Assembly: GCA_008330645.1 (NCBI GenBank)
Contig: VLTN01000034.1
Span: 248,001 to 312,000, forward strand
Reading direction: 5' to 3'
DNA: 64,000 nt
From: Cafeteria roenbergensis
Lineage: Eukaryota; Sar; Bigyra; Bicosoecida; Cafeteriaceae
Translations under genes and position numbers: made by a program
The notes under the pieces: model-generated
Databases searched by the model: none
Seen by the model: the letters and a program-made list of their open reading frames with translations, nothing else
What the model was told of the DNA's origin: nothing
In this document: positions 1 through 64,000 of the stretch, piece by piece
How the letters are laid out: the number at the start of each line of letters is the position of its first letter
Position numbering within the stretch: position 1 is the stretch's first letter

Positions 1-3000
1 TCCCACAGCGCCACAACGCAGGCCACACCAGTCAACGCGAGCCACGGGGCAGCGATGCAGCACTCCGCAGCAGCGAGCCGCCGCCGCAGCTTGAATCGAG
101 CGTCGGCCGTCATGCCCATCGACGACCCTCCGCTGCACAGCCCTGACAGGAGGAGCCTGGCCGATCGGAGGTCGACGATGGACAGCAGCAGCGTGAGCGC
201 GACAACGCTTGACCGGGCCTTTCTCTCCCGAACAAACCGCCACCCCAGCACACCGCCATCTGCAGCAACCAGCGATGCAGCGATTGCCAGCCCGGGAGAG
301 CTGCCCGCGCAGAGCCAGCAGCGACAGCAGCCGTCCAAAGAGGGAGCGGAGCAGCAGCGCCCCGCCATCACGGCCCCAGTTCGGCACAGCAGCGGCATCA
401 GCACGCCAATCAGCAACAGGGCAGCAGTCCCAGGCCGCCCCAGCACAATCACCGATGCAATTGCAGCCAGCTGGCCGACCAGCACCAGGGCAGACCCCAG
501 GCATCCGACCACATCCGAGAGACGCGCGTGCGGCGCTGACCCGGCGTGCTCACGGTCGGCTGCCGCGCAGCCGAAGCAACACGCGCCGCACCGCCCGCCG
601 CCAACACTCTCAGCTGCCGTCGCCCCGACAGCCGCTTCCGCGGCTCCTCTCGTCTCGCCTTCGGTTGCCCTGCTGGCGCTCCCTGGCGCAGCCGGTGCGA
701 GGCCGTGAGGGGGCTGCTTGTCACCAGCAAACTGGTCCTGCCCTCCGCCGCTCCGCAAGCCGACTGCACCCCCTCGGCCGCCATCGCCTCCGCCAGAACC
801 GGGCTCGCCGCTCTGGGAGCCAGCCTCCGAGCCGGAATCGCCGCTCCATGAGCCTTCGCTCTGGGACTCGAGGCTGAAGTGGCCGGGGCCAGCCGCCGCC
901 ACTCCGCAGCTGCCACTCTCCGGCTCCGCAGTCCCCGCCGCGCGGGCCGCGCCTCCAGCTCGTCGCCCCCAGGTGTGCTGTGCCGGGTCGAATGTCGGAA
1001 GGGACACTGCGCCGCACGGGCTCACGGCGGGGCTTCCAGCCGCCCCCCTGGTCACTCGTGCGACACTGACCGTCTCCTGCCAGGTCCCCGCGCCGCCGAT
1101 GGTTCTGTCAGTCGATCCGCCTTCTTCGTGGCTGGTCGGGACGGCGGAGCTGGGCGTCGGGGCTCGCAGCTGGCTCTGACTCGACAGCGACGAGACTTGG
1201 ATTGAGCCTTCCAGCATCGTCCCGTCGGGGACGCGCCACCCGCTCCGCAGGGCTGAACGCCCGAGCGTCGCAGTCGAGGGGTTCGCGGCGGGGGTAATCA
1301 GGCCTCTCGCGGCACACCGATGCCCACAGCACCAGCAGCAGGCAGCGGCCGGAAGAACTACGCCCACGCTCCACAGCGCGGCCAGGGAACAGCCCCCGGG
1401 CGGTCTGGTGGTGGCGGTGCCTGCCAGGGGTGTCACAGCTCCGCCATCGCGACGCCGCAGCCCACCGCCTCCCCCGCTCCCCCGTGCCCGCTGCAGCCTT
1501 GAGGGGCTGCCCGCCGGCTGCAGCGCGCGCCTGGGACTGCCAGCCGTCTGAACGGGCGTGCCCGCGCAGCCAGCTCCGTCTCGCACCCCGTCGCCGCCGC
1601 CTGCGCCGCTGGAAGCTCCCCCCATGGGCTGCAGCAGCAGAGCCCCGCCCCTCTGTCTCCGCTCCACCGACTCCCACACAGAGCCGTGGGCCGCACAGTA
1701 GCTAAGCGACAACGCAACGTACGCCGCGACTGCGGCCGCAACGGGCAGCGTGAGCCACATCAGCGTCTCTTGCTTCAGGTCGCCGCACACGACTAGGGAC
1801 GGGGCGCTGGCCGCGTGAAACGGTGCCCCGGTGGGAAACGGAGGGGCCCAGCCCGACACGAGGCCGTCAGTGATGCTTCTCAGCAGGAGGACGATGGAAG
1901 GGTCTGCGCCCGCTGCGCGCTCCCCCGCCTCCCTGCGCGTCTCGCTGCCGCAGGTGTACACGGGGAACACCGTCACGCTTGCCGGCGACACCGCTGCAAG
2001 CACTGTGAGCGGAGTGCTGAGCGTGGGCGCGAACCGTAAGCTGCTCGCCAGAGCCGCGGCAGCGAACGCCGCCGTGCTCATGGCTGGGCTGCCGGCCTCA
2101 GCCCAGGGGGCTGTCCCTGCTGCGTCTCGACGAGAAGACGAGGAAGCCGCTTCCGGATGAACTGGCGCCGCAGCGATTCCAATGTGCGTGCAGAGGCAGC
2201 TGCTGGTCACGCCCTGCCCATATGCCCCAATCAGGGCATCCCGGGAGGGTGACTTGCAGAGGGCGTCGGCGGTGAGCGAGGGGTCAAACCCCACGACAGT
2301 TTCGCGCACCTGGAGGGCGTGCTCTGCGGTCACAATCCCCTCCCTGGAGATGATGGCTCGGCTGCCTGTCGCGTTGTTCAGCCCAGCCAGGGTGACGACG
2401 TCTTGATGGAGTTGAAGCAGCAGGTGATCCAGCGCCAGCCTGTCGCTGAGAGCGGATTCAGCGTGCCTGAACGCAGGGTCCAGCGAGAGCCCCCCCAGAC
2501 ACGCCTGCACAACCATGGACTGGGGCACAGCGCGGCGGAGGGACACCTCAGTGGGGGCAGGGCGGCAGGCAAGTGACTGGCCGGTGGGCGGTCCTGCAGA
2601 CTGGCCATGGCGGAAGCCGAAGGCATCTGGCCAACCAGAGCCAGGGAGCGGTCGCACTGCGGCGGGACGGGCCACTGGGAGGCCGCTTCGCCCCCGGTGG
2701 GCAGGCCGGCCCAAGCCTGCATCCTTCCACGGCGCGAACTGTGCCCAGCGCTCCAGACCCTCGCGAGTCCAAGGCAGGTCGTCAGTCCGCCCTGCGGCAC
2801 CGATCACTCCAGCCCAGCCGATGGGGGAGGCCCAGGACACGGGAAGGGCAAGCCAGCTTGCAACTCCGTCGCCTGCGGCCCACACGCCCCGCTGCAGGGC
2901 GTCCTGCCCAGCAGCAGTGTCGGCAAGCTTGCACAGTCCTGCCGCGTCGTCCACGCTGCCCTGCAGCCACTGCGCCGCACGGCTCGCAGGGTCAGAGGGC

Positions 3001-4463: not shown

Positions 4464-4471
4464 GGCAGAGC
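4464..4471 (+). promoter_or_regulatory. GGCAGAGC word upstream of the LamG-like gene
   Basis: A perfect GGCAGAGC lies 103 bases upstream of the minus-strand ATG at 4361. The same octamer, in either orientation, sits 69-145 bases before eight other predicted start codons. A promoter role is inferred from position only. Confidence 0.35.
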
Positions 4472-4776: not shown

Positions 4777-4784
4777 GGCAGAGC
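4777..4784 (+). promoter_or_regulatory. GGCAGAGC word upstream of the Ser/Thr-repeat gene
   Basis: A perfect GGCAGAGC starts 148 bases before the ATG at 4925 (141 from its end) and is followed by the AT-rich stretch ATTAAAAAAC. It belongs to the set of octamers placed before start codons in this window. Confidence 0.35.
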
Positions 4785-7900: not shown

Positions 7901-10900
7901 CGTTGGGGAGGCAACTGCGCTTGAAGTTTCAAGGCACGTGGCCAGCCGGACATCGGCCCACCTTTCTGTTAGCCGCGATTCAACAGCCGAAGCGACCGCC
8001 TGGCCAGATTGCGCTGGCTCGCTTGTTGCAGCAGCCGGCCATTCGTCGCTGAGGGTGAAACTTCAAATTGAGCTGAGCAGCGAGTGGCTTGATCAGCCGT
8101 TCACCGTGGTCGCGGCTGCCGGTGCAGGCAGCGCACAATCAGAGGTCAGGGCCCTAGCCTTCGGCATGCAGAGCTCAGAGTTCGTGGCAACGTCGTGGTC
8201 TTGTCGCCAGCTGCCGTTCAACGTTGTTGCGCCGCATGCGTTGAAGTCAGGATCCGCCGTCGTTCAGAGCTCGGCTTCATCCTCCCGGCTTGCGATTGGG
8301 TCAGCCTCTCCCAACGCAGAAATGCAGTTTGCGCTTCCGAGCCCGCCGGCGGCAGGCGAGACTCTTGTTGTTGGGTGCCAGTCGACCGTATCATCATTGC
8401 GCTTCGATCACTCTCGCGCGGCGATTGACGCAGACCTGTTTGCAGCGGGGGGGCAACTCCACGTCTCTGCGTCGCTCGACTCCAGTGAGGACAGTACCGT
8501 CACGGAGGGTGACGTTCTTTGCAGCTTCACTTCCACCTCGGCCTCGCTTGCTACCGCCGCTGCAACGCTGCAGGAAGCCCAGAGTGCCATGAGCAGCAGC
8601 CAAGCTCGACCCGGGAAGCGAGGCCTTCACAGGAAGCTCTCGAGTGCCTTCCCGGAACCACCCCCAGGCGCCCGGTTCGCGACGTTGCAGCCGGTGTCTG
8701 TTCTCGTGCGGCTGGTGCCGACTTTGCTGCCTCGAGTGCGAGATGTGCTTGTTCGCCAAGAGGGCGAAGCACTGGGAAACACTTCCAGCTGGCGCTCTTC
8801 GGCTCTGTCGCAGGTGCGCGTGCTGCTGAATCCTTCAACGGCGCTGCCGTCGGCGATCGCGATTGCAAGCCTCTTAGGGCCAGTTTGGGAGACGGCCACG
8901 AGCGAAACCGCAGGGCTGCCCCAGACAGACGGGGTCCAGCTGGCTTCCAGCGGCTCCAGCGAGATCATCATGCTGATGCGCCCAGGCTCCTTCTGCTTGG
9001 GCGCTGCGACTCGCGTGTTGGTCGGTGCGGCTGAAGGAGTCCCACTCGAAGTAGCCCCCGACGGCTCTGCCATGCGCTTGCGGCTGCCAAAGCAGGCGGA
9101 GGCCTGCAACTCGTCTAGGTCTGGCGCCTGGGGCTTGGGCGGCTCGTGGGTTGAGCTGCGCTTGCAATCGCAGTCAGAAGAGTGTGGGTGGCAAGGCATC
9201 ACCATTCTTCCCGACGGGCGAAGCCTTGGAGACGTGCAGTGGACTGCAAGCGTCGCTCGCGAGTCCCGGATCCAGCCGCTGTGCCAACAGGCAGCGCAAC
9301 GCCTCGATCTCGTCGCAGATGGGGGCAAAGTCACCCTTTGCCTTGTCGGGGTCGAGCCGTCGCGGCTCCGCAAGGGCGGCTACGAAATTGACCTTAGCGA
9401 CGCACAATCGGATCTGCTGCCTCAGGCGGTTGTGGACGCCGGGTACGAATGGTCAACTGACCCTCAAGCGCGGACCCTGCGACTGGCAAGCGGCGCGCCT
9501 CTGGCTCAGGCGCTGGCCGTCTACTTTGTTGACCAATGCGAAGGGTTCGAGCCCCCTGGGCAGGCATGCGTGGATGGCACTGCCACGCTTGACTGCGCCC
9601 ACGGTACCGGAGACGCTTGTCGCTCCTGCTCATCGTTGTGCCCGGCTAGAAAGCCGGGGTGCGGCGTGTGTCCAGGGGGCTTCCGCGTCTGGCCGGCCGC
9701 AGGCTTCTGGGTGCGCAGCGAGGCAGCTCGAGTTGTGGCTCAATGCGCGCCGCCCGCCGAGCGCCGGTGCCTTGGATGGGACGTATCTAAGGCAGTCAGC
9801 CGGTGCGGCCAGGGGTTCATGGGCGACGCCTGCTCATTGTGCTCCGCAGGCTATTTCCCCGACGCCGTCGAGGGCTGCGCTGTGTGCCCACCCGGCTCGC
9901 CACTGGAGCTGCTGCTGACCCCCTTGGCCCTGTATGGCGGGCTCGCATTCGGACTTGCGTTTGGCTCCATGTTGCTGTTCGGGACCTTGCAGTGCGCCGC
10001 TTCGGACGCGGATCGTCAGGAGGCGCTGGTGCGGTCGAGAACTGCGGAGCACTTGGATCGTGGAGACCCTCCCTGGCGTGCGCGCCGGGCAGCTGAAGCA
10101 GAAGTTGCGACCAAGATTCGGGCCCAGGGCTCGGTGCCAAGAGTCGCGTGCGCCAGGTCGATGGCCGGACGGGCGGCTGGGCGTGCAGCGCAGCTCGGCC
10201 TCTGGTCAGTGCTGAGCCTCCAGACTCTCGTGCAAGTGTCACGATCGTTGGCAAAAGGTGTCCCCGACGTGGTGGCTCGCGCGTTTTCCACGCTTTCGAT
10301 CTTCGAGCTGTCGCCATCCGTTGCTGTCCACCCGCGGTGTCTGTCTCTGCCGGAACTGACAGTTGAGTCTTCCATTCTCATTGCAGTGCTGTCGCTGACT
10401 GCCGTGGTTGCACTGCTCGCCCTGGCAGTGAGCTGCGAGCCCCGCCCAGAGTCGGGCGCTCGCATCATGCCGTCCACAGCAGCAAGCATGCTGCCGCGCG
10501 TCTTCGCTGCAGCCTCCGTATCCTATGTGCTGGGAGTAAACACGATTGTGGCAGTTCTCCACTGCATCCCCGACACGACTGTGTCGGGAAGCGACTGGAC
10601 CGTCATGGCTTCCAATCCTTACATCCGTTGCGGATCGGCAGAGCACGCGCGGGCTTGGTTGCTTGCCGTCCCGGCCGCAGTCTGCGTCGCGTTCGGGCTT
10701 CCCGTGGGTACATGGCTCTTCGTCAGACAGCGATCTGCGTGGCTTCTGACTCTGGGCATCACCACAGCCGGGGCCAGCGGCCCGCGTATCGCTGTCGGGC
10801 AACAGGCCGGCCAATTGGATCAAGCCTCCGCAAAGCTGCCAGCACCAGAGCGCCGACCAAGCCGGCCGAGAAAATTGCAGGACTCCATCGGTCGCCCCAA

Positions 10901-44300: not shown

Positions 44301-45584
44301 GCAGCTGCTGCGGGGAGTGCCGCGACACCGCAGCAGCAGCGGCGGCAGCAGCGCCCGCGGGACGGGAATGGCAGCCCGGCACAGAGCAGAGCCAACCAGC
44401 CTCCCTCTCCTTGCTCCATCGCGCGCCCCTCATCCACCCTCTCCTTGCTCCATCGCGCGCCCATCCTCCGCCCTCCCCTTGCTCCATCGCGCGCCCCTCC
44501 TCCGCCCTCCCCTTGCTCCATCGCGCGCCCCTCCTCCGCCCTTCGCAGCGGCATCGACGTCACTGGCCTCCCGTTCATGATCAACTTCACTCTGCCCGAC
44601 GATGCAGAGCAGTACGTGCATCGCTCCGGCCGCGTCGGCAGAGCCGACTGCCTGGGCCTGGCCGTGTCGCTCGTGGCTGCCGCAGGCTGCAGGGAGCGCC
44701 TCTGGTTCTTGCAAAAGTCCGCCGGCCGCCTGGGCCGCGACAACATCCCGTCGGACCGCCGTGACTTCGCTGCCGGCGGGAACTGCGTCTGGAGCGACGA
44801 GGCTGCGTCTCTGGCTGCGGTGGAGGCCAGACTGGCCAAGGGGGGCTTCCAAGGCATGGTCGCGCCGGCCACGGCCGCGGGCAAGCCCACGATTCCGCGC
44901 ATCGCGGCGGTGCCCCTGGTCCGTCCCGATGGCAGCGACGAGGCCGATGCCGCGGTGGCGGCCAAGGCGGCGGCTCTGCCTGGAGCCTTTGCACTGTCAG
45001 GCATGTCGTCCGGAGCGTCGTCCTCGTCAGGCTCTGCCGTGCCTCGCATCGCTCCGTCAGGCCGCCGACTGCTATACGGGATCAAGTTCCCGCCCGGCAT
45101 CGGCACCGGCAGCGGGGCCGCGTACGGCGAGACCGCCGCGGCCGATGGCGGCAGCGCGGAGGGCGCAGCTCGCCTGATGGTGCTGCGGCCCACGGTTGAC
45201 TCGCTCTGCGCGCTGGAGCAGCAGAGCCAGTCGGCGTACCTGTCGCTCCGGGCGCGCTTTGGCGGCGCTGGCATGCGCGGCGCCGACACGACTGACCGGC
45301 CGGGCAGGCCGCTCACTGCCGCGGTGATTCGAGCTGAAACGGGCGACGGACTGCCCGCTGCGCCAAAGCACGTCAAGGCGCCGAGCGCCACCCCGACGGG
45401 GCCGGCGGCCCGACCGTCGTCGTCGTCGTCGTCGAGCGGCGGGGCCGGGCGCGGGTCGCCCAAGCCGAGCGCAGGCGGGGCTTCGGGCGGAGGCAGCGGT
45501 ACAGGGGACGGCGGCGGGAACAGCGCCGGGGGCGGTGGCGGGTCTCGCCGCGGGCGCCGGCGCAAGAAGCCCGCGCGTGTGTGA
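41327..45584 (+). CDS. DDX1: DEAD-box RNA helicase DDX1 (with SPRY insert)
   Basis: Six exons, 41327-41397, 41514-41848, 42094-43084, 43464-43728, 44046-44266 and 44549-45584, join in phases 2, 1, 2, 0 and 2 and give 972 residues. Motifs in order: Q-motif region WLLPSDVQDEAIPLML, Walker A AAQTGSGKT (about 47), a SPRY domain (about 140-300) inserted before motif Ia as in animal DDX1, PTRDLAEQ (321), GTPSR, LVLDEADRLV (about 397), FSATLHS (437), the DDX1-type SVPDTVHHAVVEV, IFCRTNMDCE, VCTDAVARGID and VHRSGRVGRAD (about 652). DDX1 takes part in tRNA ligase and mRNA 3'-end complexes. The position usually holding HGDR between motifs IV and V is MVGGAVPGQQ. A Gly/Ser/Arg-rich tail ends in RRGRRRKKPARV, longer than in animal DDX1. 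Confidence 0.95.
43247..43293 (+). repeat. TG microsatellite in a DDX1 intron
   Basis: An imperfect TG run lies in intron 3 of DDX1, preceded by a GGCGGGGGC-rich stretch. Similar GT/CA runs occur in other non-coding segments of the window (near 29985, 34245 and 41930), and none was noticed in exons. Confidence 0.85.
44397..44548 (+). repeat. 34-nt tandem repeat (x4) running into a splice acceptor
   Basis: In DDX1 intron 5, TTGCTCCATCGCGCGCCC recurs at 44411, 44445, 44479 and 44513, an exact 34-base period. The last unit flows directly into the acceptor CTTCGCAG at 44541-44548. The repeat is pyrimidine-rich, so it has multiplied the polypyrimidine tract. Confidence 0.9.
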
Positions 45585-45773: not shown

Positions 45774-45781
45774 GCTCTGCC
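45774..45781 (-). promoter_or_regulatory. GGCAGAGC word (reverse) upstream of the MFS transporter
   Basis: GCTCTGCC on the plus strand ends 69 bases before the ATG at 45850, the nearest of the octamers seen before start codons. The 265-base intergenic region holds no other clear feature. Confidence 0.35.
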
Positions 45782-45849
45782 AACGGCGGCGAACGTCGCG
45801 GCACGATCGCAAGAGCGAGCCACTTGCCGGCCCCTGCACGGCAGCAAGG

Positions 45850-50272: not shown

Positions 50273-53200
50273 TCACTCGCCGTACTCGCCGCCATCCCAC
50301 ACAGCGGCCGGCTGCTGGGCCAGCGCTGCGGCTCCGACTTCCCCCCAACGCTCCCCGGAGGCGCCGTCATCGGAGCGGTCGGCGTCAGAGCCTGCCTGCC
50401 GAGATGGGCCGCCCTCGTGCTGGTCTCTGCCCCGCTGCCACGAGCGCCGGCTCTGCTGCTGCTCCTCGCGCAAATCGAAAAAGTGGCCCGCCGACTGGCC
50501 AGCAGAGCCGGCTAAAGAGCCGGCTAAAGAGCCAGTTCCCGCGTCGGTGCGAGCAACCAGCCCGTCGTCCAGCGATCGGCGGACGGCCTGGCGCCGGCTG
50601 ACCGTGCGCTGGTGCTCAGTCCACGCATCGCTCAGCGGTCGCGCGTCGGCACTCCGACGCTCCGCCGGCAGCTCCCGCGGCTCGCCACGGGCAGAGCCCC
50701 GGACGGCGGGGCCCGCCCCTGCTGCATCGCTCGCTTCAGCTTCGCCAGCTGAGGCGTCGACGCTGCCCTCGGATGCGGCGGCGGCGGCGGCGGCATCGTC
50801 GTTCGCAACGCCCGCCACACCTCCAAGGCCGGCAGGTGCCGCGCCCTCTGCTGCCGCGTGAGACCCCGCAGAGCCGGCGCCGTGAATATGGTGCATCGGG
50901 CGGGCGCCGTCCGCGCTCGCGGCTCCGCCGCCACCTTTGCCGTGTTCTTCAAAGTGGTGCAGCGGCTCTGCATCGTCATCGACAAGCTGCCCGTGCGGCG
51001 GAGCCGATCCCTCCAGTCGGGTCGACAGCCTCGCAAGCGCGTCTCTCATTGCCGTCGCAGCGCGCACAACCGATGCCGCGGACGGGAGCCGCCGCTGCGA
51101 GCCGAGGGGCTGCGTTCCACCGGAGGCGACCTCCGACTCTGCATCCTCGGCAGAGCTGTCATGACCTGCACCGGCAGAGCTGGATCCGCCAGTGACTCCA
51201 ACGATGTCAGCCAACTCGCGCAGCGTCGATCGATGCTCTGCAACGACTTGAGTCATTCGCGAAACCGTGGGAGCAACTCCTGCCAGAGACGTCACCCCCA
51301 TTGCTCGCATGCACTGCCCCAGGATTGCGTCCTCAACCGAAGCTGCAGAGCCGGTTCGTAAGGCCTCTGCAGCCGCGAAAGTGGCGTGATGCCGAAGAGA
51401 CAGGTTCTCAAAGTGGACGAGCGACGCAACCTCCCTCGCGAGCGACTCAACGTCAGAAGCCAGCAACCCCTCCCGGGCAGGCAGTCCTGGAGGCACTCCC
51501 AGCAGCGCACCGGCTCTCGCGTCGACGTCCTGCGGCGCAGGGCGACGGCTGCCGATCCTTCCTGTTTCGTGCGACCTGCCTTCCTGGTCCTCCGCTGACG
51601 AAGTGGACGGACCTGTGATGGAGCTGTGATGGGCTCTGCCAGTTGCCACGTCGTCAGCGAGCTCTTGCACGCGCCGGCGCCCAGCCTCGCCCATGCGGCT
51701 CACCCTCCAGCGAAGTGCCCTGCAGAGCCGATTTGCAAGCAGCTCTGCCCTTCGCGCCGCTTCGGCGCGCGCGCGTAACTCCACGACGCGCGCTGCGACG
51801 CGTTCTAGGAAGGATCCGCCGTCAGCTGACTGGTCCGAAGAGGCGCTGGACGGCGGGCCAGCCCGGCCTCCTGTCTCGGTCTGGATGCCGTCCGCACCGC
51901 GCCTGGGCTGTGCGGGGTCCAGCGACCGTCGCGGCGGTTGCGGTTTCGCGTGAGCGGCAGGCCCACGCGCCCGCCTCTGCAGGCCCCCGGATGATGACGC
52001 CTCCGAAGCCGGAACAGCCGCTGCAACGGCCCTGACGAACCGCTCCAGGGCCGGAAGCGACGAAACCGCTCGCTTGACGGTCCTGACGGCAGCCGGAAGG
52101 CCGTTGGGGTCGGCCACGCCCAGGTCCACGCACGCCTCCTTCACGATGGCGGCCAAATCGGCTCTGCCCATAACGGACACCTGGGCGGACAGTCCTGATT
52201 CGTGTGACTGTCTGTCGATGGACGCGAGATGGCCAGGCCGCGTCAGCCTTCGCCTTGCACTGGCCTCCTTCCGCAGCGACTCCGCTCGTGACATGAGTGA
52301 CTCCGAGTCGATGCCTGCCTCTGATGCGGCTTCCGCCACAGAGCGGAGTCGCTCAATCTCCGTTCGTGCGTCTCGCCACGCCTCCACGGTGGGGCGCGCC
52401 GCGAGCGCCACTCTGAGCGACTCTGCGTCGCGCACCGCCTCGGCCGCTCGCGCATCGGCAGCTTCTGCCGCCTCTCGGAATCGAGCGACGTCGCGCCCAG
52501 CAACGGCTTCCCGACTCCGCACTGCCGCGGCTCGTGCCTGCAAGGCTGCCTGCACCACCAGCAGGGACCGTCGCTCACGCTCCAGCTGCAGGGACAGCTC
52601 TGCAATGCCGGATCCCTCCCAATGAGCGGGCGGGCGCAGGGCGGGAGTCATTGCCCGCTGCTGGCCCGGATGCGTGGCCAGGCCGAGCGACGCGTCGGCG
52701 CTTGAGGAGGAGGCGCTGTCGGCGGGCCAGCTGGCCCTCGTACCGGGCACAGCGACGGCGGCGGCAGCGCCTGCGGCAGCGGCAGAGCCAGCGATGGCGG
52801 GCCCAGGCGGTGGGACCGGCTCTGCCGTGCCTGGTACCGGCTCTGCCGTGCCTGGTACCGGCTCTGCCGTGCCTGGTTCCGGCTTGGCCGTGCCTGGGGC
52901 CGGTTGCAGCTGGCTGGCGTCGCGGTCGGCGCGGAGGTCGGTTTGCAGCGTCCGCAGCAGCAGAGACGCATCGAGGGCGAGTCGCTCGTTCACGGGTGAC
53001 TCGGGCACGATGGGCTCCTGATCCGACTCTGACGCCGCCGGAATGACGGCGCGCTGACCATCCTGCGACTGCTCAGCGCCTGCCGCAGAAGCCCCGCCCG
53101 CCACACCCGCGCCGTCGGGACCGAGCGACTCCGCGTCTCCGCCTGGCAGCGACGACACACCGACAACTGGGCCGCCAGAGGCACCGGTCGCACTTGCAGC

Positions 53201-56200
53201 GCCAGCTCCGCCCGCAGAGCCCGACGATGCGGCGACTGTGGGCACCTGGCTGGGGCCGTCGCCCAGTGATGCACGCCCTCGGGATGCGAGGTCGCCCACT
53301 GAGTCGTCTCCCTCGCTGCCCAGCAGCGCGTCGCGCGCCACAGCAACTGCAGCTGCCCGAGCAGCCTGCGCCGCGAAACCGCCCCCGCCTCCATGCAAGT
53401 GGGTCTGCCTCAGCGCGTTTTCGGCGTTTCGAAGTGCCGACGCAAGCGCAGCCACCCTTGACGCCAGTGACTCCGCGTCCTGTGTTGCCCGGGCCGCTTG
53501 TGCTCTCACTCCAACGGTGAGCGCCACCGCTGCCGAGTCGGCAGAGCTCGATGCAACGGGGTCACGCCCGTGAGCGACGCGGAAGAGCGACTCTGCGTCG
53601 AGCCTCGCGCGCTCCCAACGCCGAGCCGATTCCTCAAGGCGGCGCCTGAGAGACTCAGCATCGCTCTCAGCGCGCGCAGCGCGACGGTCAGCTTCCTGCA
53701 CAGCATCGGTCAAACGATTCGCCGTTTGCTCTGCGGCCAGCTCGGCATCGGAAGCCGCTCGGCGAGCGGACTCCGCATCCGACTCCGCATCTGCGACACG
53801 CCTCTCTACGTGGGCCAGCTTCGCTCGCAGCTCTGCCCCCTCCGAGGACGTCAACCGCCCCCGAGCCGCAGCAGCTTCGGCGGCGCCACGTTCTGCCGCC
53901 TGCAGGCGCCAACGCTCCGCTGCCGACGTCGCTTGCGACAGGGCCTCTTCAAGAGACCGTTTCTCGCCGGCCAAGCGATTCGCCGAAGCCTGCGCCTTGG
54001 TCGCCGCTGCCTCCGCCTCGACCGCCTGAAGCCGCGCGGCCACCGCTCGCGATCGCGCCTCGCTCAGGCGCGCGTGCAACGCGGCCTCTGACTGCTCGGC
54101 CAAATGTTTCGCCGCTTCGAGCCGGGACTCCGCACGCCGTGACCGGCTCTCTGCTGCCTGCAGTCGGCCGCGCAGAGAGTTCAGGGTGGCCGAAGACGAC
54201 GAGTGACCCCGTCTGCCAGGGGCTGCCGAAACGCGCGACCTGTCATCCCGAGCGGAACCGCCGGCGTCGCTCAGTCCCACGACGCTGGGCGCTGCGTGGC
54301 CTTCACCAACTGACTCCTCGCTGATGTCCAACTGACCGGCACCTGACCCTGCAGCCGATGCGGAACCGCTCCTTGCTGAAGCAGCCACGCTGTCGCCATC
54401 GCCACGGACACCGCCCCTTGCCCTCGGTAGAGCCGTGCCAACGTCGGCACCAGCCTCCTTGGCCGCCCGCCAGGCGGCCTCCGCCCACCGACGCGCCTCC
54501 GATCGCTCTGCCCGGCTCTGCGCAAGGAGCCGCTCCGTCGATCGCACCTGAGTCTCCAGCTCTGCCACTCGTGCCGAGGCTGCAGTCAGCTGGCGGGACA
54601 GCTGATAGCGCTCGTCGACGTCAGTTCGGTCGGCTGCTCGGCGCTGCGCGTCTCTCAATTGCGCAGTGAGCGACGCCCTTGCAGTTTCATGCTCCCGCCT
54701 CTCTCGGGTCAGCTGCGAGTCTGCCTGGTTTCGCGCCGTCTCGAGCGCGCGGGCGCGGTCAGCGAGTCGTGCCACCTCGCGACGAAGCAGAGCCACTTCG
54801 GAGTCAGTCGGCCCGGGACCAACATCGGTCCCAATCAGCGCAGACAGCTCGCTTGCCGGAGCGGCAGCAGCATCGGTGACAGCGTCGGCACCAGCATCGG
54901 CAGGATTGGCAACAGAATCGGCAGGATCGGCCGAGGCGCTCTCCTCTGGGTGGCGGCGCTCGCTTGCGTCGTCGTCGCCTGCGGGAAGCCCTCCATCGGC
55001 ATCACAAGCGGCAGTGGTGCCAGCGGCAGCATCGCCAGACGCAGCGTGAGCGGCCGCAGCTCTTGGAGTTGCAGTTGCAGTTGCGGTTGCTGCTGCAGAC
55101 GACGATGAAGCGGTTGCAGGTCCTCTCTGCGAAACCGCTCGCCTTCCCCTGGCCGCGGCAAGCGCTGCTCGGAGTCGGCCTGCGGTCTCTGCAGTCATGG
55201 CCTTGGCTCTGCTGAGCGACTCCTCCGATGCCTGCAGCTGTGCGCGAAGCGACGCAGTTTCGGTTGCAAGCTGGTCCTTAAGCGACTTCACTTCCGTTTC
55301 TGCCGCTTCTCGAGCTGCCTGCGCCGCCGCCAGTCTGGCTTGGGCCTTTCGTTTGGCCGTCGTTGCTGCCAACTCCGCACGTCGGGCCCTGGCCCTCGCC
55401 TGGTCCGCATCCGCCTCCGCAGCTCCAGCGCGTCGCTCCGCGCTCGAGAGCCGGTCCATCAAGCGACTCGCGCCGACCGGAGTCAGACCACCGCCGGCAC
55501 CAGAACGGCTTCCAGCGGCTCTGCCTCCGGAGTCTGAACTGCCTGCAGAGCCAATGATAACCTTCATGCTTCCCACACTTCGCTGCTCTGCCGTGCGCAG
55601 CCGGATCCGAAGCTCCGCCACCTGAGCCCGAGACTGGGTGAGCGACTCGAGCGTCTCTCGGAACGCCTCAAGGACGTCGCTCTCCCGTGCCTGCACGTGG
55701 TCACTGGACCCCGTCGCTGCCCCTGAAGCGACGCCTGAAGCTGCAACTGCAACTGTGGCTGCAGGTGCAGCTGCGTCCGTGCCCGCTGCAGTCCCGGCCT
55801 CCCCCCGGGATGCGACTCGCTGGCCGGAGGTGGCGTCGGGGACTCCACCCGGCAGAGCCAGTGGTGCCTTCCCCGACACAGCCCCTCGCATCATCTGGGC
55901 GTCACGCTGAATCAGCGGAATGTCACGCCGCACGTGTGCCTGGCCGAGCCAAGCCCTCACGGCACGCCACGGCCGCGCCGTCAGCGTCAGCAACCGACGC
56001 GACCCGTCAGCTGACGCACGAATCGCGCCTGGGGTGAGTGCCGCTGCCGGATCTCCGTTTTGGCCGGGAATGGCTGAACGACGCAGCGAAGTGACGAGCG
56101 ACAGAGGGGTGCCTGTGCCATCGGTGATTCCTTTCGCCGACGCTGGCGCCGTCGGCCCACGGGCGAGGGGCTTTGCACCGTGTGCGCCGGCCGTCGAGCC

Positions 56201-58090
56201 AGCGCCCCCCGCACCAGCACCAGCACCAACACCAGCACCAGCACCAGCACCAGCACCAGCACCAGCACCAGCACCAGCACCAGCACCAGCACCAACACCA
56301 GCAGCACCAGCCGACGAAACCGCAGTCGAAGACGACGACAACGGTCCAGCCTCTGAGCCGGCCACTATCCGCCCGAGCAGCGCCGTTGGCAGAGCCAGAT
56401 CGGTGTCGCGGCGGAGCTCTGCACTCGACAGAGCCGAAGTGCTTCCGCCTGTCGCGGCGTGCGGGGCTCCGTGAGCCAAGCTCCTGTGATCGTCCCGAGA
56501 CCGATGGCTGACAGACCCGTGACCAGGCTGAGCCTCTCCAAGCGGGTGCACAGTCAAGCCAGTCCCAGTCACTCCAACGTCAACTCCGGAGAAATGAAAC
56601 ATCGCACGATCCTTGGCGGTGTCATCGCCGTATTGGAGTCGCTCCGCACCAAACTCCGCACGATGTCTGCCGTCGAGCGCTGCCCAGCCTGCCGCCTCCT
56701 CAGCCTCGGCCTCTGCCTCCTCCACCTCCTCCTCCTCTGCGGTTTCGTCGAGGAAGCGCCCGAGCGCGCTGTCGTCCAAGCCCAGGTCCGCTCCGGACGC
56801 AGCCCCTGCGCCGGGTGCCGACGCGTGCCCCGGTCGCGCGCCCTGCGGCTCCTCTGGCCGCCTCCGGCCTCCCGCGGCCGTTGCAGAGTCCGCCAAGGCC
56901 AGCTGGTGGGGTCGGACCGACCCTGCCCCAGTGGCAGCAGTGGCCGCGGCACCTTGGCTCGACGGCTGAATCGCGGAGGGAAGGGTCGGCCGTCCAGCTG
57001 ATGCGCTGGTGACTGATGCGTGATGCGCACCGGCCGAAGACATGATCGGTGCTGCAGGCCACGCAGAGCCACCAGTGACTTGCGTTTGATGTTCTAGTGA
57101 CCCGCCGACGACAGGCCCCCCTCCCCCTGACGGATCCAGCGGAAACACCTCCAGCGACCCCGCCGGCCCACCGGACGTATGCGTGGCTGCGGCAGACACA
57201 TCCGCTCGCCCGTCGGCACGAGGCGGCGACTGTGATGCTTGGGTGATGGGAAGTGACGGCGGACTGGCCGACTGCGCAGGCGCAGTGGCGCCGCCTGAAC
57301 CCACGGGCCTGTCTGGTGACGGCTCCTCCTCCACGAAGAGCCGGTGCGGTTTCACGTGGTCAGAAGCAGAAGGGGACGTGGCATGTTCCGCGTCAGCTGG
57401 CTGGCGTCCATCGGCAGAGCTGTCCTGGTCGTGGCTCTGCGAGGGCCAGACGTCGCTCACCGGTTCTCCGTCACTGTCCCATACGGCATCAGCGTCGGCG
57501 TCGGCGCCAGTGTCCGACCCGGCAGTGTGCCGGGCAGAGCCAGCGCGTGCAGCGGGTGGCTGTGAGAGCGAACGCTCAGACGCCGTCTCAGAGGCCCGCG
57601 CGGACAGCTCTGCCACTGCCGGGACAACTGCCCCCGTAGCAGCACGCCCGTCGGCTGATGTGGCGACATCCCTGCCGAAAGGAATGCGCTGGAGGGTCGG
57701 GTGGCCGCTTGCATTGCGCTGGGTCTGTTGGTCTGCTGTCGCGGCGCCAGTCGCCAAGCGGTGGCCAATGGCATGGAGGCGGCTGAAGATGTCGTCTTCC
57801 TCATCCTCGTCTTCTTCGGCTCGCACGGCCGTCGGTTTATCGGCAAGATGGGAGGTGCCAGAGGAGCTGGCGGCCGCTTCTCGGTGAGCAGCGTCCGACG
57901 GGGCCTGCGGCCTGCGCGCGCCACGGCTGGACGGTGAGGTGTGCGCCGACGGCGCGGCCATGTCTGCCAGCACCTGAACGTCCATTCCTGCGGCGACAAG
58001 GCTTGCAGCGTGCCGTGCAGCAGCGGTTGCTTCCGGCGACTCGGCCTCCCGTTGCTGCAGCCCCGGCGGGGTGCCCGGCGGGCTGGCCAT
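50273..58090 (-). CDS. Giant intronless coiled-coil protein
   Basis: One uninterrupted frame; the first in-frame ATG (MASPPGTPPGLQQREAES) is at 58090, giving 2,605 residues. Upstream the frame is open to 58201 without a Met. The N-terminal ~780 residues are Ser/Gly/Ala/Asp-rich and probably disordered, with an acidic patch (EEDEDEEDDIF) and a Gly-Ala run at about residues 593-626. From about residue 810 to 1530 a long coiled coil follows with heptads such as LTQSRAQVAELRIRLRTAEQ, EREAETEVK-like segments and AELETQVRSTERLL. Further coiled segments continue past residue 1850. The peptide DAESL (or ESDAESL) recurs at heptad-like spacing. The C-terminus is again low complexity. A golgin, centrosomal or flagellar scaffold is plausible, but no family was recognised. 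It is divergent from TMEM267, with a TATATA box 128 bases upstream. Confidence 0.8.
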   Translation of the reverse strand: MASPPGTPPGLQQREAESPEATAAARHAASLVAAGMDVQVLADMAAPSAHTSPSSRGARRPQAPSDAAHREAAASSSGTSHLADKPTAVRAEEDEDEEDDIFSRLHAIGHRLATGAATADQQTQRNASGHPTLQRIPFGRDVATSADGRAATGAVVPAVAELSARASETASERSLSQPPAARAGSARHTAGSDTGADADADAVWDSDGEPVSDVWPSQSHDQDSSADGRQPADAEHATSPSASDHVKPHRLFVEEEPSPDRPVGSGGATAPAQSASPPSLPITQASQSPPRADGRADVSAAATHTSGGPAGSLEVFPLDPSGGGGPVVGGSLEHQTQVTGGSAWPAAPIMSSAGAHHASVTSASAGRPTLPSAIQPSSQGAAATAATGAGSVRPHQLALADSATAAGGRRRPEEPQGARPGHASAPGAGAASGADLGLDDSALGRFLDETAEEEEVEEAEAEAEEAAGWAALDGRHRAEFGAERLQYGDDTAKDRAMFHFSGVDVGVTGTGLTVHPLGEAQPGHGSVSHRSRDDHRSLAHGAPHAATGGSTSALSSAELRRDTDLALPTALLGRIVAGSEAGPLSSSSTAVSSAGAAGVGAGAGAGAGAGAGAGAGAGAGVGAGAGAGGAGSTAGAHGAKPLARGPTAPASAKGITDGTGTPLSLVTSLRRSAIPGQNGDPAAALTPGAIRASADGSRRLLTLTARPWRAVRAWLGQAHVRRDIPLIQRDAQMMRGAVSGKAPLALPGGVPDATSGQRVASRGEAGTAAGTDAAAPAATVAVAASGVASGAATGSSDHVQARESDVLEAFRETLESLTQSRAQVAELRIRLRTAEQRSVGSMKVIIGSAGSSDSGGRAAGSRSGAGGGLTPVGASRLMDRLSSAERRAGAAEADADQARARARRAELAATTAKRKAQARLAAAQAAREAAETEVKSLKDQLATETASLRAQLQASEESLSRAKAMTAETAGRLRAALAAARGRRAVSQRGPATASSSSAAATATATATPRAAAAHAASGDAAAGTTAACDADGGLPAGDDDASERRHPEESASADPADSVANPADAGADAVTDAAAAPASELSALIGTDVGPGPTDSEVALLRREVARLADRARALETARNQADSQLTRERREHETARASLTAQLRDAQRRAADRTDVDERYQLSRQLTAASARVAELETQVRSTERLLAQSRAERSEARRWAEAAWRAAKEAGADVGTALPRARGGVRGDGDSVAASARSGSASAAGSGAGQLDISEESVGEGHAAPSVVGLSDAGGSARDDRSRVSAAPGRRGHSSSSATLNSLRGRLQAAESRSRRAESRLEAAKHLAEQSEAALHARLSEARSRAVAARLQAVEAEAAATKAQASANRLAGEKRSLEEALSQATSAAERWRLQAAERGAAEAAAARGRLTSSEGAELRAKLAHVERRVADAESDAESARRAASDAELAAEQTANRLTDAVQEADRRAARAESDAESLRRRLEESARRWERARLDAESLFRVAHGRDPVASSSADSAAVALTVGVRAQAARATQDAESLASRVAALASALRNAENALRQTHLHGGGGGFAAQAARAAAVAVARDALLGSEGDDSVGDLASRGRASLGDGPSQVPTVAASSGSAGGAGAASATGASGGPVVGVSSLPGGDAESLGPDGAGVAGGASAAGAEQSQDGQRAVIPAASESDQEPIVPESPVNERLALDASLLLRTLQTDLRADRDASQLQPAPGTAKPEPGTAEPVPGTAEPVPGTAEPVPPPGPAIAGSAAAAGAAAAVAVPGTRASWPADSASSSSADASLGLATHPGQQRAMTPALRPPAHWEGSGIAELSLQLERERRSLLVVQAALQARAAAVRSREAVAGRDVARFREAAEAADARAAEAVRDAESLRVALAARPTVEAWRDARTEIERLRSVAEAASEAGIDSESLMSRAESLRKEASARRRLTRPGHLASIDRQSHESGLSAQVSVMGRADLAAIVKEACVDLGVADPNGLPAAVRTVKRAVSSLPALERFVRAVAAAVPASEASSSGGLQRRARGPAAHAKPQPPRRSLDPAQPRRGADGIQTETGGRAGPPSSASSDQSADGGSFLERVAARVVELRARAEAARRAELLANRLCRALRWRVSRMGEAGRRRVQELADDVATGRAHHSSITGPSTSSAEDQEGRSHETGRIGSRRPAPQDVDARAGALLGVPPGLPAREGLLASDVESLAREVASLVHFENLSLRHHATFAAAEALRTGSAASVEDAILGQCMRAMGVTSLAGVAPTVSRMTQVVAEHRSTLRELADIVGVTGGSSSAGAGHDSSAEDAESEVASGGTQPLGSQRRLPSAASVVRAATAMRDALARLSTRLEGSAPPHGQLVDDDAEPLHHFEEHGKGGGGAASADGARPMHHIHGAGSAGSHAAAEGAAPAGLGGVAGVANDDAAAAAAASEGSVDASAGEAEASDAAGAGPAVRGSARGEPRELPAERRSADARPLSDAWTEHQRTVSRRQAVRRSLDDGLVARTDAGTGSLAGSLAGSAGQSAGHFFDLREEQQQSRRSWQRGRDQHEGGPSRQAGSDADRSDDGASGERWGEVGAAALAQQPAAVWDGGEYGE
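52817..52901 (-). repeat. 21-nt in-frame repeat (PGTAEPV), about 4 copies
   Basis: Four 21-base units encode a Pro-Gly-Thr-Ala-Glu-Pro-Val repeat within a disordered linker of the giant coiled-coil protein. The first three units each contain the octamer GCTCTGCC; the fourth is diverged at that point. Confidence 0.88.
56212..56311 (-). repeat. Hexanucleotide run encoding (Gly-Ala)n
   Basis: About 16 units of ACCAGC (plus strand), with three ACCAAC variants, encode an alternating Gly-Ala run in the N-terminal low-complexity part of the giant coiled-coil protein. Interruptions change GA to GV. It is a length-variable locus by appearance. Confidence 0.9.
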
Positions 58091-59610: not shown

Positions 59611-62600
59611 ATGTCTGCTGGCCCCCTCCAATCCGACGTGCAGCGGCTCCGGCGCGAGTTTCTGAGCGCCAGGCGAGCCGCAGCCGAAGCAGATGCGAGC
59701 GGCACGGCAAGCCGCCGTCGGATTGCGACCGGGGCGTGGCAGCAGCCTCCTGTGGACAGCGGGATGTGGTCGGGCAGGCTGTCGACCGTTCGCCGCCGAT
59801 TGCACAGCCCCGCGCCCCGCAGCCCCCCCGCAAAGGGCGGAAGCGGCGGGGATGGCACTCGCCGTCATCGGCCTTTCTCGAGTGGGTCAGGGGAGCATCA
59901 CGTGCCGGCAGTTGCCGGGCACTGGGACGGCTCTGGCTCGCTTCCTGCTGGCTTGGCTGGCCGCAGCTGGCCGCGGAGCAACGGCCAGCCTCTGGCCAGG
60001 CCCGCGTCGTCCGGGCGCTCCCTCCTGTCGCCTCCCCGCGAGGCGTCAGGGGCGCTGCGCCGAACGCCCAGCCCGACGCCCTCCCACCCGTTCAGCGGCG
60101 CCGCCGGCCGCAGCGGGGGCGGCCCTGAAACCGCCAGCCCGGGACGCGGAGTGCCCGATCGAGCGACGCAAGTTGCTCGCGCAAGCAGACGGATTCTCAG
60201 CGCACTTTCACCGACGGGCGCCACAGGTCTCGCGACGCCAGTGCCTGCCATTCGGAAGCGACTCGCGAAGAGGCAGCATCAGCAGCCCATCACCGAGCAG
60301 TCATCACCCGAAGACGACTCGAAGTTGACATTGGCCGGAAGTCTCGGGTCTGACCCCGCTACCACCCTCGCCAGTCCTAGCGGGCAGAGCCGTCTGCTGT
60401 CCCCGTGGCAGCCCCGTCCGCTCGGCCCCAGCCCCAGCGGCCACCTGTCCCCCGGCAGAGCCGCCCGTGGCACCCCCAGCGAGAGCCTCTCACCGGCTCG
60501 GCACCCCGTCACCCCGAGAAGGCCCCCCAGCCAGGCGGCAGGTGGCGTCGGCACCGGCAGCAGCGGCTTCGCGGCCTTGGACGACAGCCCAACTGAGGAC
60601 GCAGAGGCAGCGCGGACTGCCCCACCAGAGGAGACGTTGACCGCGGTTTCGCGAGCCGAGGAGGCCGAGGCGGCGCTGAAGGCTGCACAGGAGGAGACGT
60701 TGACCGCGGTTTCGCGAGCCGAGGAGGCCGAGGCGGCGCTGAAGGCTGCACAGGAGGAGACGTTGACCGCGGTTTCGCGTGCCGAGGAGGCCGAGGCGGC
60801 GCTGAAGGCTGCGCGGGCAGAGGCTGCATCCACAGTTGCGGCTGCACAGGTGGAGACGTCGACCGCGGTTTCGCGAGCCGAGGAGGCCGAGGCGGCGCTG
60901 AAGGCTGCGCGGGCAGAGGCTGCATCCACAGTTGCGGCTGCACAGGAGGAGACGTCGACCGCGGTTTCGCGAGCCGAGGAGGCCGAGGCGGCGCTGAAGG
61001 CTGCACAAGAGGAGACGTTGACCGCGGTTTCGCGTGCCGAGGAGGCCGAGGCGGCGCTGAAGGCTGCGCGGGCAGAGGCTGCATCCACAGTTGCGGCTGC
61101 ACAGGTGGAGACGTCGACCGCGGTTTCGCGAGCCGAGGAGGCCGAGGCGGCGCTGAAGGCTGCGCGGGCAGAGGCTGCATCCACAGTTGCGGCTGCACAG
61201 GTGGAGACGTCGACCGCGGTTTCGCGAGCCGAGGAGGCCGAGGCGGCGCTGAAGGCTGCGCGGGCAGAGGCTGCAACCGCAGTTGCGGCTTCGTGGGAGA
61301 GGGAATCGACCGCGGTTTCGCGAGCCGAGGAGGCCGAGGCAACGCTGAAGGCTGCACAGGAGGAGACGTCGACCGCGGTTTCGCGAGCCGAGGAGGCCGA
61401 GGCGGCGCTTAAGGCTGCACAGGAGGAGACGTTGACCGCGGTTTCGCGAGCCGAGGAGGCCGAGGCGGCGCTGAAGGCTGCGCGGGCAGAGGCTGCATCC
61501 ACAGTTGCGGCTGCACAGGTGGAGACGTCGACCGCGGTTTCGCGAGCCGAGGAGGCCGAGGCGGCGCTGAAGGCTGCACAGGAGGAGACGTTGACCGCGG
61601 TTTCGCGAGCCGAGGAGGCCGAGGCGGCGCTGAAGGCTGCGCGGGCAGAGGCTGCAACCGCAGTTGCGGCTTCGTGGGAGAGGGAATCGACCGCGGTTTC
61701 GCGAGCCGAGGAGGCCGAGGCAACGCTGAAGGCTGCACAGGAGGAGACGTCGACCGCGGTTTCGCGAGCCGAGGAGGCCGAGGCGGCGCTGAAGGCTGCA
61801 CAGGAGGAGACGTTGACCGCGGTTTCGCGAGCCGAGGAGGCCGAGGCGGCGCTGAAGGCTGCGCGGGCAGAGGCTGCATCCACAGTTGCGGCTGCACAGG
61901 AGGAGACGTCGACCGCGGTTTCGCGAGCCGAGGAGGCCGAGGTGGCGCTGAAGGCTGCACAGGAGGAGACGTTGACCGCGGTTTCGCGAGCCGAGGAGGC
62001 CGAGGCGGCGCTGAAGGCTGCGCGGGCAGAGGCTGCAACCGCAGTTGCGGCTGCACAGGAAGAGGCGTCTACCGCGGTTTCGCGAGCCGAGGAGGCCGAG
62101 GCGGCGCTGAAGGCTGCACAGGAGGAGACGTTGACCGCGGTTTCGCGAGCCGAGGAGGCCGAGGCGGCGCTGAAGGCTGCGCGGGCAGAGGCTGCATCCA
62201 CAGTTGCGGCTGCACAGGAGGAGACGTCGACCGCGGTTTCGCGAGCCGAGGAGGCCGAGGTGGCGCTGAAGGCTGCACAGGAGGAGACGTTGACCGCGGT
62301 TTCGCGAGCCGAGGAGGCCGAGGCGGCGCTGAAGGCTGCGCGGGCAGAGGCTGCAACCGCAGTTGCGGCTGCACAGGAAGAGGCGTCTACCGCGGTTTCG
62401 CGAGCCGAGGAGGCCGAGGCGGCGCTGAAGGTTGCACAGGAGGAGATATTGACCGCGGTTTCGCGTGCCGAGGAGGCCGAGGCTTTGATGGAGGCAGCAG
62501 AGCTGGCCGTTGAATCCACTCTTGGCAGGGCCGACGAGGCGGAGGAAAGATTGGCCGAGTCGCAGGAGACGATCGATCGCCTCACCGGTGAGCTGGAAGA

Positions 62601-62782
62601 ACTCACCGCTTGGCGGCGGTCGGCGTCCGAGCGACACTCCGAGTCGCTCAAGCTGTTGGAGCGTCAGGCTGACGGCCGGGTGGCAGAGCTTCAACGAAAG
62701 GTAGAGCTGCTCACTTCGAAGCTGGAGGCGATGGACACACTTCGGCAACGTCTCGAGGCAGCGGAGGCGCGACGCCGACAGC

Positions 62783-62842
<60 letters not shown>

Positions 62843-64000
62843 TGAAGCAGCGGCAGCAGCAGCGCTCGCAGACCCAGCCGGCGGTGCCGGGACTGCCTGC
62901 AGGGCTGTCCACAGGAGCGCCGCCAATTGCAGCGAGCAGCGCTGCCGGTGCGTCGGGCCCGGTCTCTGGCGATGCTGCTGCCGCACCGGCGGCGGCGGCG
63001 AGCGATGCACGACCTCTGGTCTCGCCCAGCGGGTCGCCCACGGGTCCTACGCACCACGCCTCGGCGGTTTCGCCCGATCAGTCCCATCGATCGCAAGCTC
63101 TGCTGGCCGTGGCGAGACGACGTCGGGAGCTGGCGGATGCGCCGAGGATGCGGCCGGCGCCGCCTCCGGCTCTGCCACCGGGGATGTCGATTGAAGACTT
63201 GTCTCGACGGCTTGCTGACCGGCGTGCGATGGCAGCTGACCCGCTGGCTTGCGGAAACCTCCCGGCAAGTTCCTTGCCGCCCGCGCCTCCGCCGTCGCCT
63301 GCCGGGGAAGACAGCGACGCCATCAGCAGCCAGTCAGGCGAGGAGGCCCCCACTGCGGAGAGGGAAGATGACGGTGATGTATCTCTGACGCGCCACGGAC
63401 ACGCCGTTGATTGGGCTGAAACCAGGGGCGGCCCCCATGCGCAACCCGGCACGGAGAGCTCCAACTCCGACTCTCAGTTGGACTCCGAATCTGGAGATCA
63501 TGCCCCAACTAGGGGCAGGGCACCCACCAACCATACGCAGCAGCCCGACCACGAGGTGTCCGTTGGGGCGCGCAGGTCCAAGCCTTCGCCTCACAGGGCT
63601 CCTGGTTCCCGTGCGAAACCGCCCGGTGCGAAACCGCCCGGTGCGAAACCGCCACCCCCTCCCAAGAGCCGCTTGGCTCCGCCACCGGCTCCATCGCCCA
63701 CGCCGGGCTCACCTTCGGCGAATCGTTTGGCCGATTCCGAAGCTAGCCTCATGGCCAAAGGCAGAAGGCAGGACTCCGGGAACGAGTCGCTGGAGTCTGA
63801 CCCCGAGGCAGGCACGCCAGCGACTCGGACTGGGACTGACACACCGATCGACGAGGCCACGCATGCACCGCCCCCCCCGCCGCAGGGCCAGCCCTCCCCC
63901 CGTGAAAAGCCGCCCGAGTTCCAGAAGGGGCCCTCCGAGGCCCCCAAGAGGCGAAGCGTGATTCCGGTCGGCAGCCGCCCGCCGCCGCCGCCGAAGCAGC
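59611..64000 (+). CDS. Coiled-coil protein with 24-copy repeat and poly-Gln (3' end beyond window)
   Basis: The plus frame from ATG 59611 (MSAGPLQSDVQRLRREFLSA) is open to the window end, at least 1,463 residues with no intron. Residues 1-340 are Ser/Pro/Arg/Gly-rich and probably disordered. Residues about 341-958 are a helical array of 24 SRAEEAE units. A non-repetitive coiled coil follows (RADEAEERLAESQETIDRL, KVELLTSKLEAMDTLRQRL), then 19 consecutive CAG codons encoding Gln. The C-terminal part is Pro/Ser-rich with KPPGAKPPGAKPPPPPK and RPPPPPKQ, possible SH3- or EVH1-type ligands. Composition recalls cytoskeletal scaffolds. The opposite-strand frames over the array are repeat artefacts. 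No family was recognised. Confidence 0.75.
60633..62484 (+). repeat. Mixed 63/96-nt coding tandem array (24 SRAEEAE units) with higher-order copies
   Basis: Two related units alternate: 63 bases (21 residues, AAQEETLTAVSRAEEAEAAL plus Lys) and 96 bases (32 residues, with an 11-residue AEAASTVAAAQ-type insert). Thus the units are three heptads, or three heptads plus one hendecad. Marker variants show higher-order duplication: GGAAGAGGCGTC at 62058 and 62376 (318 bases, two of each unit), and GCTTCGTGGGAGAG-type markers at about 61290 and 61671 (381 bases, three short plus two long). Nearly every unit contains GCGGTTTCGCG or GCGGTTTCGCGT. Confidence 0.93.
62785..62841 (+). repeat. CAG run encoding 19 Gln
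   Basis: Nineteen uninterrupted CAG codons in frame in the repeat coiled-coil gene, followed by CTGAAGCAGCGGCAGCAG. The absence of interruptions suggests it is length-variable. Confidence 0.95.

Follow-up and report, generated by a model that had tools for sequence, protein, structure and literature searches.

In this work, we analyse a short DNA word, the octamer GGCAGAGC (GCTCTGCC when read on the other strand), that is iterated across the nuclear genome of the protist Cafeteria roenbergensis independently of the encoded protein and of codon usage. It was noticed in a stretch of 64,000 nucleotides (the window, C34:248001-312000 of a 36,303,456-base assembly in 167 contigs) by a sequence-only reading, which described the octamer as iterated throughout. 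We tentatively read the octamer as the core of YGGCAGAGCY, a recognition word in double-stranded DNA that a putative nuclear factor would bind and that weak selection would keep, an explanation to which we give somewhat less than an even chance.

The window holds 72 copies of GGCAGAGC/GCTCTGCC, 39 on the forward and 33 on the reverse strand, compared with 5.3 expected from independent bases, 14.3 from an order-3 Markov model and 26.5 from an order-4 model. Exactly eight of them lie at 15,000-18,200, where at least eight had been claimed and roughly 0.26 are expected (independent bases, scaled). Across the whole genome (36.3 Mb) there are 20,918 copies (10,543 and 10,375 by strand), or one per 1,735 bases, against 3,302 of the reversed word, which serves as control; YGGCAGAGCY occurs 12,543 times and its reversal 881 times. 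Whole-genome counts are limited to named patterns; since a reversed word matches the original in base composition without sharing its full context, more weight falls on the Markov and codon controls. The iteration of the word, on both strands, is thus confirmed, but its placement in ‘nearly every gene’ was too strong: no copy occurs at 26,047-35,045 or 45,782-50,689, stretches that hold conserved genes, those for a B56 phosphatase subunit, an alpha/beta hydrolase and an MFS transporter. As for the expected rank at or near the top of all octamers, the word came first in predicted coding DNA and second, behind poly-C, in predicted noncoding DNA of the sample described below once repeats were masked. 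Unmasked, it was by order-3 z-score fourth across 200 kb from other loci and only 18th in the window, where most of the words ahead of it belong to tandem arrays or simple repeats or are AT-rich and present once.

The sample for coding tests comprised the window and twenty 10-kb loci (L009-L028, one from each of contigs 1-20). Coding DNA was labelled by an unsupervised three-periodic model, and gene labels are predictions from sequence. The noncoding label is soft: a gene-like region near 10-12 kb of the window falls under it at least in part, and long open frames cover nearly everything in DNA this GC-rich. L020 was excluded from gene-level counts because its 395-bp satellite bears the word (adding 10 copies), which leaves 254 kb; it is still included in the 200-kb unmasked ranking, the comparison of 64 GGCNNNGCC words and the flank-coupling count. 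Tandem-repeat masking covered 12,660 of the 254,000 bases, the array at 60,628-62,483 of the window among them. The codon null consisted of 200 synonymous shuffles with the protein held fixed, and the codon tests span 0.7% of a single genome.

Predicted coding DNA in this sample contains 138 copies of GGCAGAGC, a count that synonymous shuffling does not reproduce (27.7 ± 4.8, maximum 38); for the decamer CGGCAGAGCC, 56 copies compare with 4.6 from the shuffles. By register, GGCAGAGC is found 19, 5 and 44 times in phases 0, 1 and 2, where the shuffles give 2.3, 3.2 and 10.8, and GCTCTGCC 17, 40 and 4 times, where they give 4.2, 4.5 and 2.7. Enrichment is thus not confined to one codon phase, and the claim that the protein does not explain the multi-frame reading stands for four of the six registers. 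The other two, which require Gln-Ser or Leu-Cys, are not clearly enriched; the Gln-Ser register leaves little scope for synonymous gain, as CAG already accounts for 87% of Gln codons. Codon choice within the word departs from overall usage: AGA makes up 3.2% of Arg codons yet 19 of 58 between GGC and GC, TCT 8.4% of Ser codons yet 40 of 83 in GC-Ser-GCC, GCA 13.4% of Ala codons yet 44 of 104 in G-Ala-GAGC, and GCT 12.8% of Ala codons yet 17 of 44 ahead of CTGCC. These comparisons show that the excess is independent of protein sequence and codon usage. There is also no transcriptional strand bias, with 68 sense and 61 antisense copies in predicted genes (16.7 and 11.4 expected), a balance which means that the word is not a one-strand RNA signal.

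The word is sharp, though not perfectly so. In the masked sample, CGGCAGAGCC occurs 58 times against 5.9 expected, and its inner bases are intolerant of change: one-base variants at the seven inner positions (third to ninth) show no excess (80 against 85.9). Outer-base variants exceed expectation (38 against 7.2 at position 1 and 38 against 9.3 at position 10). Existing copies are young, conserved or restored. A pyrimidine is preferred on both sides of the octamer, and no conserved flank extends past about two bases on each side; with no shared flank around the copies, we rejected a transposon origin. An origin through hairpins or palindrome repair was likewise rejected, as AGA/TCT alone of the 64 GGCNNNGCC words is markedly enriched (7.95-fold, compared with at most 1.72-fold for the others) and flank positions -1 and +9 are uncoupled (64 of 199 C/G pairs, with roughly 61 expected from single columns). 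A paralogue comparison of insertion with substitution yielded no informative pair outside the L020 satellite among 40 of 51 alignments.

In the sample, density is 0.77 per kb in predicted coding and 0.66 per kb in predicted noncoding DNA, and the latter is enriched as well (49 copies against 11.8, masked). Density falls from 1.33 per kb in the least to 0.39 per kb in the most hydrophobic protein segments, and the observed/shuffle ratio stays between 7.8 and 3.9 across hydrophobicity classes; this count includes four loci, L029-L032, hand-picked as hot or cold from earlier listings. Of these, the hot L031 and L032 carry 29 and 30 copies per 10 kb, and the cold L029 and L030 carry 2 and 3. Composition was rejected as the cause, as no dinucleotide-ratio difference among the 11 loci compared explains the contrast.

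Copies also pair. Genome-wide, gaps of 0-30 separate 670 and 655 direct, 337 divergent and 281 convergent pairs, where random placement would give roughly 92-95 for each of the four counts (hand estimate). Among 50 distinct divergent pairs listed, of the 337, 14 have a gap of 0 (hand count), compared with 1.6 if gaps 0-30 were even, and contig 12 holds 7 of them. A gap of 0 does not occur among the 50 convergent pairs listed, of the 281. Abutting head-to-head copies form a 16-bp palindrome, GCTCTGCCGGCAGAGC, which is over-represented: extended by a following C, it is matched 59 + 67 times and its reversed control never. Among the matches listed (100 of 126 rows, up to contig 68), 72 distinct abutting sites were counted by hand, 5 of them on contigs 1-11, which hold 28.6% of all bases.

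To account for these features, we propose that a putative sequence-specific nuclear factor recognises YGGCAGAGCY as double-stranded DNA in either orientation, and that copies would be retained by weak selection on the site wherever the encoded protein permits. The factor would probably be able to bind as a dimer, because abutting head-to-head copies are over-represented, and its likeliest roles would lie in recombination, repair or chromatin organisation rather than in the transcription of single genes. From these patterns we infer the factor, its dimeric binding and role, and selection in preference to biased repair; intolerance of the inner bases and the abutting pairs tilt us slightly towards selection over a functionless drive.

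Several observations weigh against this proposal. Two of the six strand-by-frame registers show little excess (5 against 3.2 and 4 against 2.7), and confident noncoding DNA is scarce: 10.5 kb lacking any 300-codon frame hold 4 copies against 1.5, and in 11.3 kb of sequence from 38 putative introns the word occurs 8 times and its reversal twice. Changes of the first G yield more variants than expected both in the decamer, where this is position 2 of CGGCAGAGCC (38 against 12.7), and in the octamer (143 against 87); the sixth base of the octamer behaves likewise (219 against 176), and all 24 one-base octamer neighbours total 798 against 701. Loci differ beyond the codon correction (chi-square 68.4, 19 degrees of freedom, window and 19 loci; clumping within loci contributes), and copies clump, inverted pairs reaching roughly three and direct pairs roughly seven times the random expectation, with the direct-pair excess partly due to local tandem duplication. 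A function needing regular sites would not predict such clumping and patchiness. Even the preference for gap 0 is partly expected (roughly threefold, by estimate), because abutting words meet each other's flank preference. The patchiness favours drive, and the present data do not separate selection from drive.

Such a molecular drive would need no function: biased repair or gene conversion would favour the word over near-matches in heteroduplex, and the word would build up in places under little protein constraint and perhaps in those that recombine often. We consider this a serious possibility, although a rather doubtful one. It resembles two proposed models: the repair ratchet for HIP1, described in PMC4390886, and the uptake drive for DNA uptake words, described in PMC1939737. 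Clumping and regional patchiness that persist after codon-use correction speak for it, as do the roughly threefold lower density in hydrophobic segments and the difference between hot and cold loci, all of them pre-picked; near-matches of the core, however, are not depleted overall. A ratchet of the HIP1 type would moreover have no obvious driver here, because a six-frame search of the genome with PF00145 gave no C5 DNA methyltransferase match; exon-split genes can escape this search, the ten control genomes that it matched are all prokaryotic, and it covered C5 but no adenine methyltransferases. It is improbable, in our view, that the word is instead what remains of a decaying mobile or inserted sequence of very small size that spread genome-wide. 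The roughly 21,000 dispersed copies and the tandem and abutting pairs would fit, and the octamer-neighbour excess of 97 is, as a total, compatible with steady-state neutral decay (an estimated 150 or so). Unlike decay, however, this excess is uneven, being smaller at the third and eighth bases than at the first and sixth and absent at the second, fourth, fifth and seventh, a distribution that a motif with a few looser positions fits better. Decay would also add an estimated 39 or so variants at the inner positions of the decamer, where 80 are found against 85.9, and no conserved flank extends past about two bases, although a very recent burst would escape the argument from positions.

The remaining explanations are less probable still. 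A splicing, stability or translation signal in transcripts could draw on the occurrence of the word in predicted exons and putative introns and on the strand bias of the second word described below, but the 68:61 balance of the main word makes such an RNA-level element very unlikely. We give slightly less credence still to protein and codon composition, that is, to A-E-L coiled coils and GSA, SSA or GRA linkers: GSA, GRA, ALP, SSA and xAEx are indeed the common readings of the word, but protein-keeping shuffles yield 27.7 copies where 138 are found, and GGCGGAGC (78 against 67.4) and GGCCGAGC (56 against 65.5) lie near expectation despite the same AE reading in that register, which already contradicts this explanation barring a codon-pair rule that spells the word. 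Least probable of all is a systematic base-calling or assembly error that converts neighbouring sequences into the word, as the largest deficit of any one-base neighbour is roughly 12 against 139 extra copies (masked sample); nor are the copies indel errors, because many sit within long open frames.

A second word, GCGAAACCGC, is found 2,499 times in the genome, compared with 249 for its reversal, and 25 times in the masked sample against 2.1 expected. Its two leading bases are loose (8 variants against 2.3 and 6 against 2.2), and variants at the next seven positions sum to 32 against 33.9. In coding segments it is strand-biased, with 18 copies as GCGGTTTCGC and 4 as GCGAAACCGC (1.4 and 0.3 expected; small numbers). 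Of 40 copies in the window, 24 sit inside one tandem array. It is conceivable, though we are clearly hesitant, that a small lexicon of iterated words, with at least YGGCAGAGCY and GCGAAACCGC as members, serves in this nucleus as a HIP-like marking that would be regionally concentrated over tens of thousands of coding and noncoding sites, independent of C5 methylation and read by a dimer.

Table 1 Copies of the main and second words in the window
Feature	Position	Strand	Remark
GGCAGAGC	4464..4471	+	
GGCAGAGC	4777..4784	+	
GGCAGAGC	9064..9071	-	
GGCAGAGC	10637..10644	+	
GGCAGAGC	14257..14264	-	
GGCAGAGC x2	15126..15190	+	at 15126, 15183
GGCAGAGC x3	15858..16004	+	at 15858, 15934, 15997
GGCAGAGC	16923..16930	+	
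GGCAGAGC	17895..17902	-	
GGCAGAGC	18184..18191	+	
GGCAGAGC	18604..18611	+	
GGCAGAGC x2	18988..19035	-	at 18988, 19028
GGCAGAGC x2	21093..21124	+	at 21093, 21117
GGCAGAGC divergent pair	21374..21398		21374 (-), 21391 (+)
GGCAGAGC	21514..21521	+	
GGCAGAGC	22189..22196	+	
GGCAGAGC	22416..22423	+	
GGCAGAGC	23409..23416	-	
GGCAGAGC	25198..25205	-	
GGCAGAGC	25405..25412	-	
GGCAGAGC	26039..26046	+	
GGCAGAGC	35046..35053	+	
GGCAGAGC x3	36279..36348		36279 (+), 36316 (-), 36341 (+)
GGCAGAGC	36454..36461	-	
GGCAGAGC	36610..36617	-	
GGCAGAGC x2	36990..37014	+	at 36990, 37007; possible intron, splice sites judged by eye
GGCAGAGC	38295..38302	-	
GGCAGAGC	38401..38408	+	
GGCAGAGC	38517..38524	-	
GGCAGAGC	38676..38683	-	
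GGCAGAGC	39653..39660	+	
GGCAGAGC	41211..41218	-	
GGCAGAGC	42343..42350	-	
GGCAGAGC	42659..42666	+	
GGCAGAGC	44637..44644	+	
GGCAGAGC	44973..44980	-	
GGCAGAGC	45031..45038	-	
GGCAGAGC	45774..45781	-	
GGCAGAGC	50690..50697	+	
GGCAGAGC x2	51149..51180	+	at 51149, 51173
GGCAGAGC	51633..51640	-	
GGCAGAGC	51742..51749	-	
GGCAGAGC	52161..52168	-	
GGCAGAGC	52781..52788	+	
GGCAGAGC x3	52819..52868	-	at 52819, 52840, 52861; 21-bp tandem repeat
GGCAGAGC	53540..53547	+	
GGCAGAGC	53830..53837	-	
GGCAGAGC	54505..54512	-	
GGCAGAGC	54559..54566	-	
GGCAGAGC	55518..55525	-	
GGCAGAGC	55585..55592	-	
GGCAGAGC	55851..55858	+	
GGCAGAGC	56388..56395	+	
GGCAGAGC	57413..57420	+	
GGCAGAGC	57533..57540	+	
GGCAGAGC	57607..57614	-	
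GGCAGAGC	60383..60390	+	
GGCAGAGC	60454..60461	+	
GGCAGAGC	62682..62689	+	
GGCAGAGC	63169..63176	-	
GCGAAACCGC	8902..8911	+	
GCGAAACCGC	17635..17644	+	
GCGAAACCGC	17814..17823	+	
GCGAAACCGC	22019..22028	+	
GCGAAACCGC	24569..24578	+	
GCGAAACCGC	24700..24709	-	
GCGAAACCGC	28919..28928	+	
GCGAAACCGC	37706..37715	-	
GCGAAACCGC	42685..42694	-	
GCGAAACCGC	51940..51949	-	
GCGAAACCGC	53373..53382	+	
GCGAAACCGC	55129..55138	+	
Second word x24 (as GCGGTTTCGC)	60643..62464	-	nested 63/96/159-bp tandem array 60,628-62,483, predicted coding DNA
GCGAAACCGC	63064..63073	-	
GCGAAACCGC x3	63613..63652	+	at 63613, 63628, 63643; 15-bp tandem repeat

Other repeats in the window are a 24-bp unit in roughly 41 copies (6156-7130, 98% matches, inside an open frame) and a 16-bp unit in roughly 13 copies (37274-37479) that adjoins word-rich DNA. 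The L020 satellite on contig 12 (2725-8635) has 15 copies of its unit; among 14 units read, the main word is present in ten and replaced by GGCAGAGT in four. Window positions 10145-11737, which the coding model left unlabelled, resemble L025 3844-5418 at 72-80% identity. The genes of the window include a SPRY-DEAD helicase. Among the other loci, a RAP-domain protein on contig 12 (L032 4229-10000) has a 1,924-amino-acid frame bearing 27 word copies, and a probable divergent P-type ATPase on contig 14 (L022 2641-6813), identified by an E1-E2_ATPase match under the curated cut-off and by DKTGTLT and GDGTNDE motifs seen by eye, bears 11. In the eleven loci inspected, CpG shows no depletion. Telomere repeats of the TTAGGG or TTTAGGG type are absent from 20 contig ends (300 bases each), and PF00504 has no match in the genome, that is, no chlorophyll-binding protein was found.

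The sequence-only reading had likened the word to highly iterated words such as HIP1 or DNA uptake words. It is indeed highly iterated at the DNA level, on both strands and in several registers, with a genome-wide excess, but its spread over genes is uneven and, unlike HIP1, it is not a palindrome. HIP1 (GCGATCGC) is itself read in several codon registers. Both are dispersed, over-represented octamers at about one per 1-2 kb (here one per 1,735 bp); PMC4390886 gives about one per 1,000 nucleotides for the HIP of cyanobacteria. Whereas HIP1 is palindromic, GGCAGAGC is not its own reverse complement; it has a second, unrelated word beside it, and it sits in a eukaryotic nuclear genome (36.3 Mb; B56, SPRY-DEAD and RAP proteins, putative introns) in which no C5 methyltransferase domain was found. 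The main word is also clumped and patchy rather than levelled near one per kb, the spread that we would expect from the repair model as given in PMC4390886. The word thus works like HIP1, in being dispersed and blind to protein, but palindromy, evenness and host place it outside the HIP class.

DNA uptake sequences of Haemophilus and Neisseria are likewise short, non-palindromic words without orientation bias, found in noncoding and less constrained coding DNA. Some of their mismatched forms accumulate too, according to PMC1939737; here, such forms accumulate at the first G and at both outer bases and not at the remaining inner bases. Natural competence is not known in the present case. Chi and other bacterial recombination words share the short, non-palindromic form and the many dispersed copies. 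Chi orientation is biased with replication direction, and the near-equal strand totals of the main word genome-wide (10,543 against 10,375) do not settle whether such a bias exists here. Among the papers listed by full-text literature searches, with subscription journals mostly outside their reach, titles and abstract openings gave no description of this word or of any HIP-like one in a eukaryote. For the iterated words of bacteria, methylation-linked repair, uptake drive and selection are still debated as causes, and an example from a eukaryote that apparently has no C5 methyltransferase would help to tell them apart. In such an example, a DNA word rather than translation would dictate which synonymous codons, and perhaps also some of the amino acids, are used in many genes.

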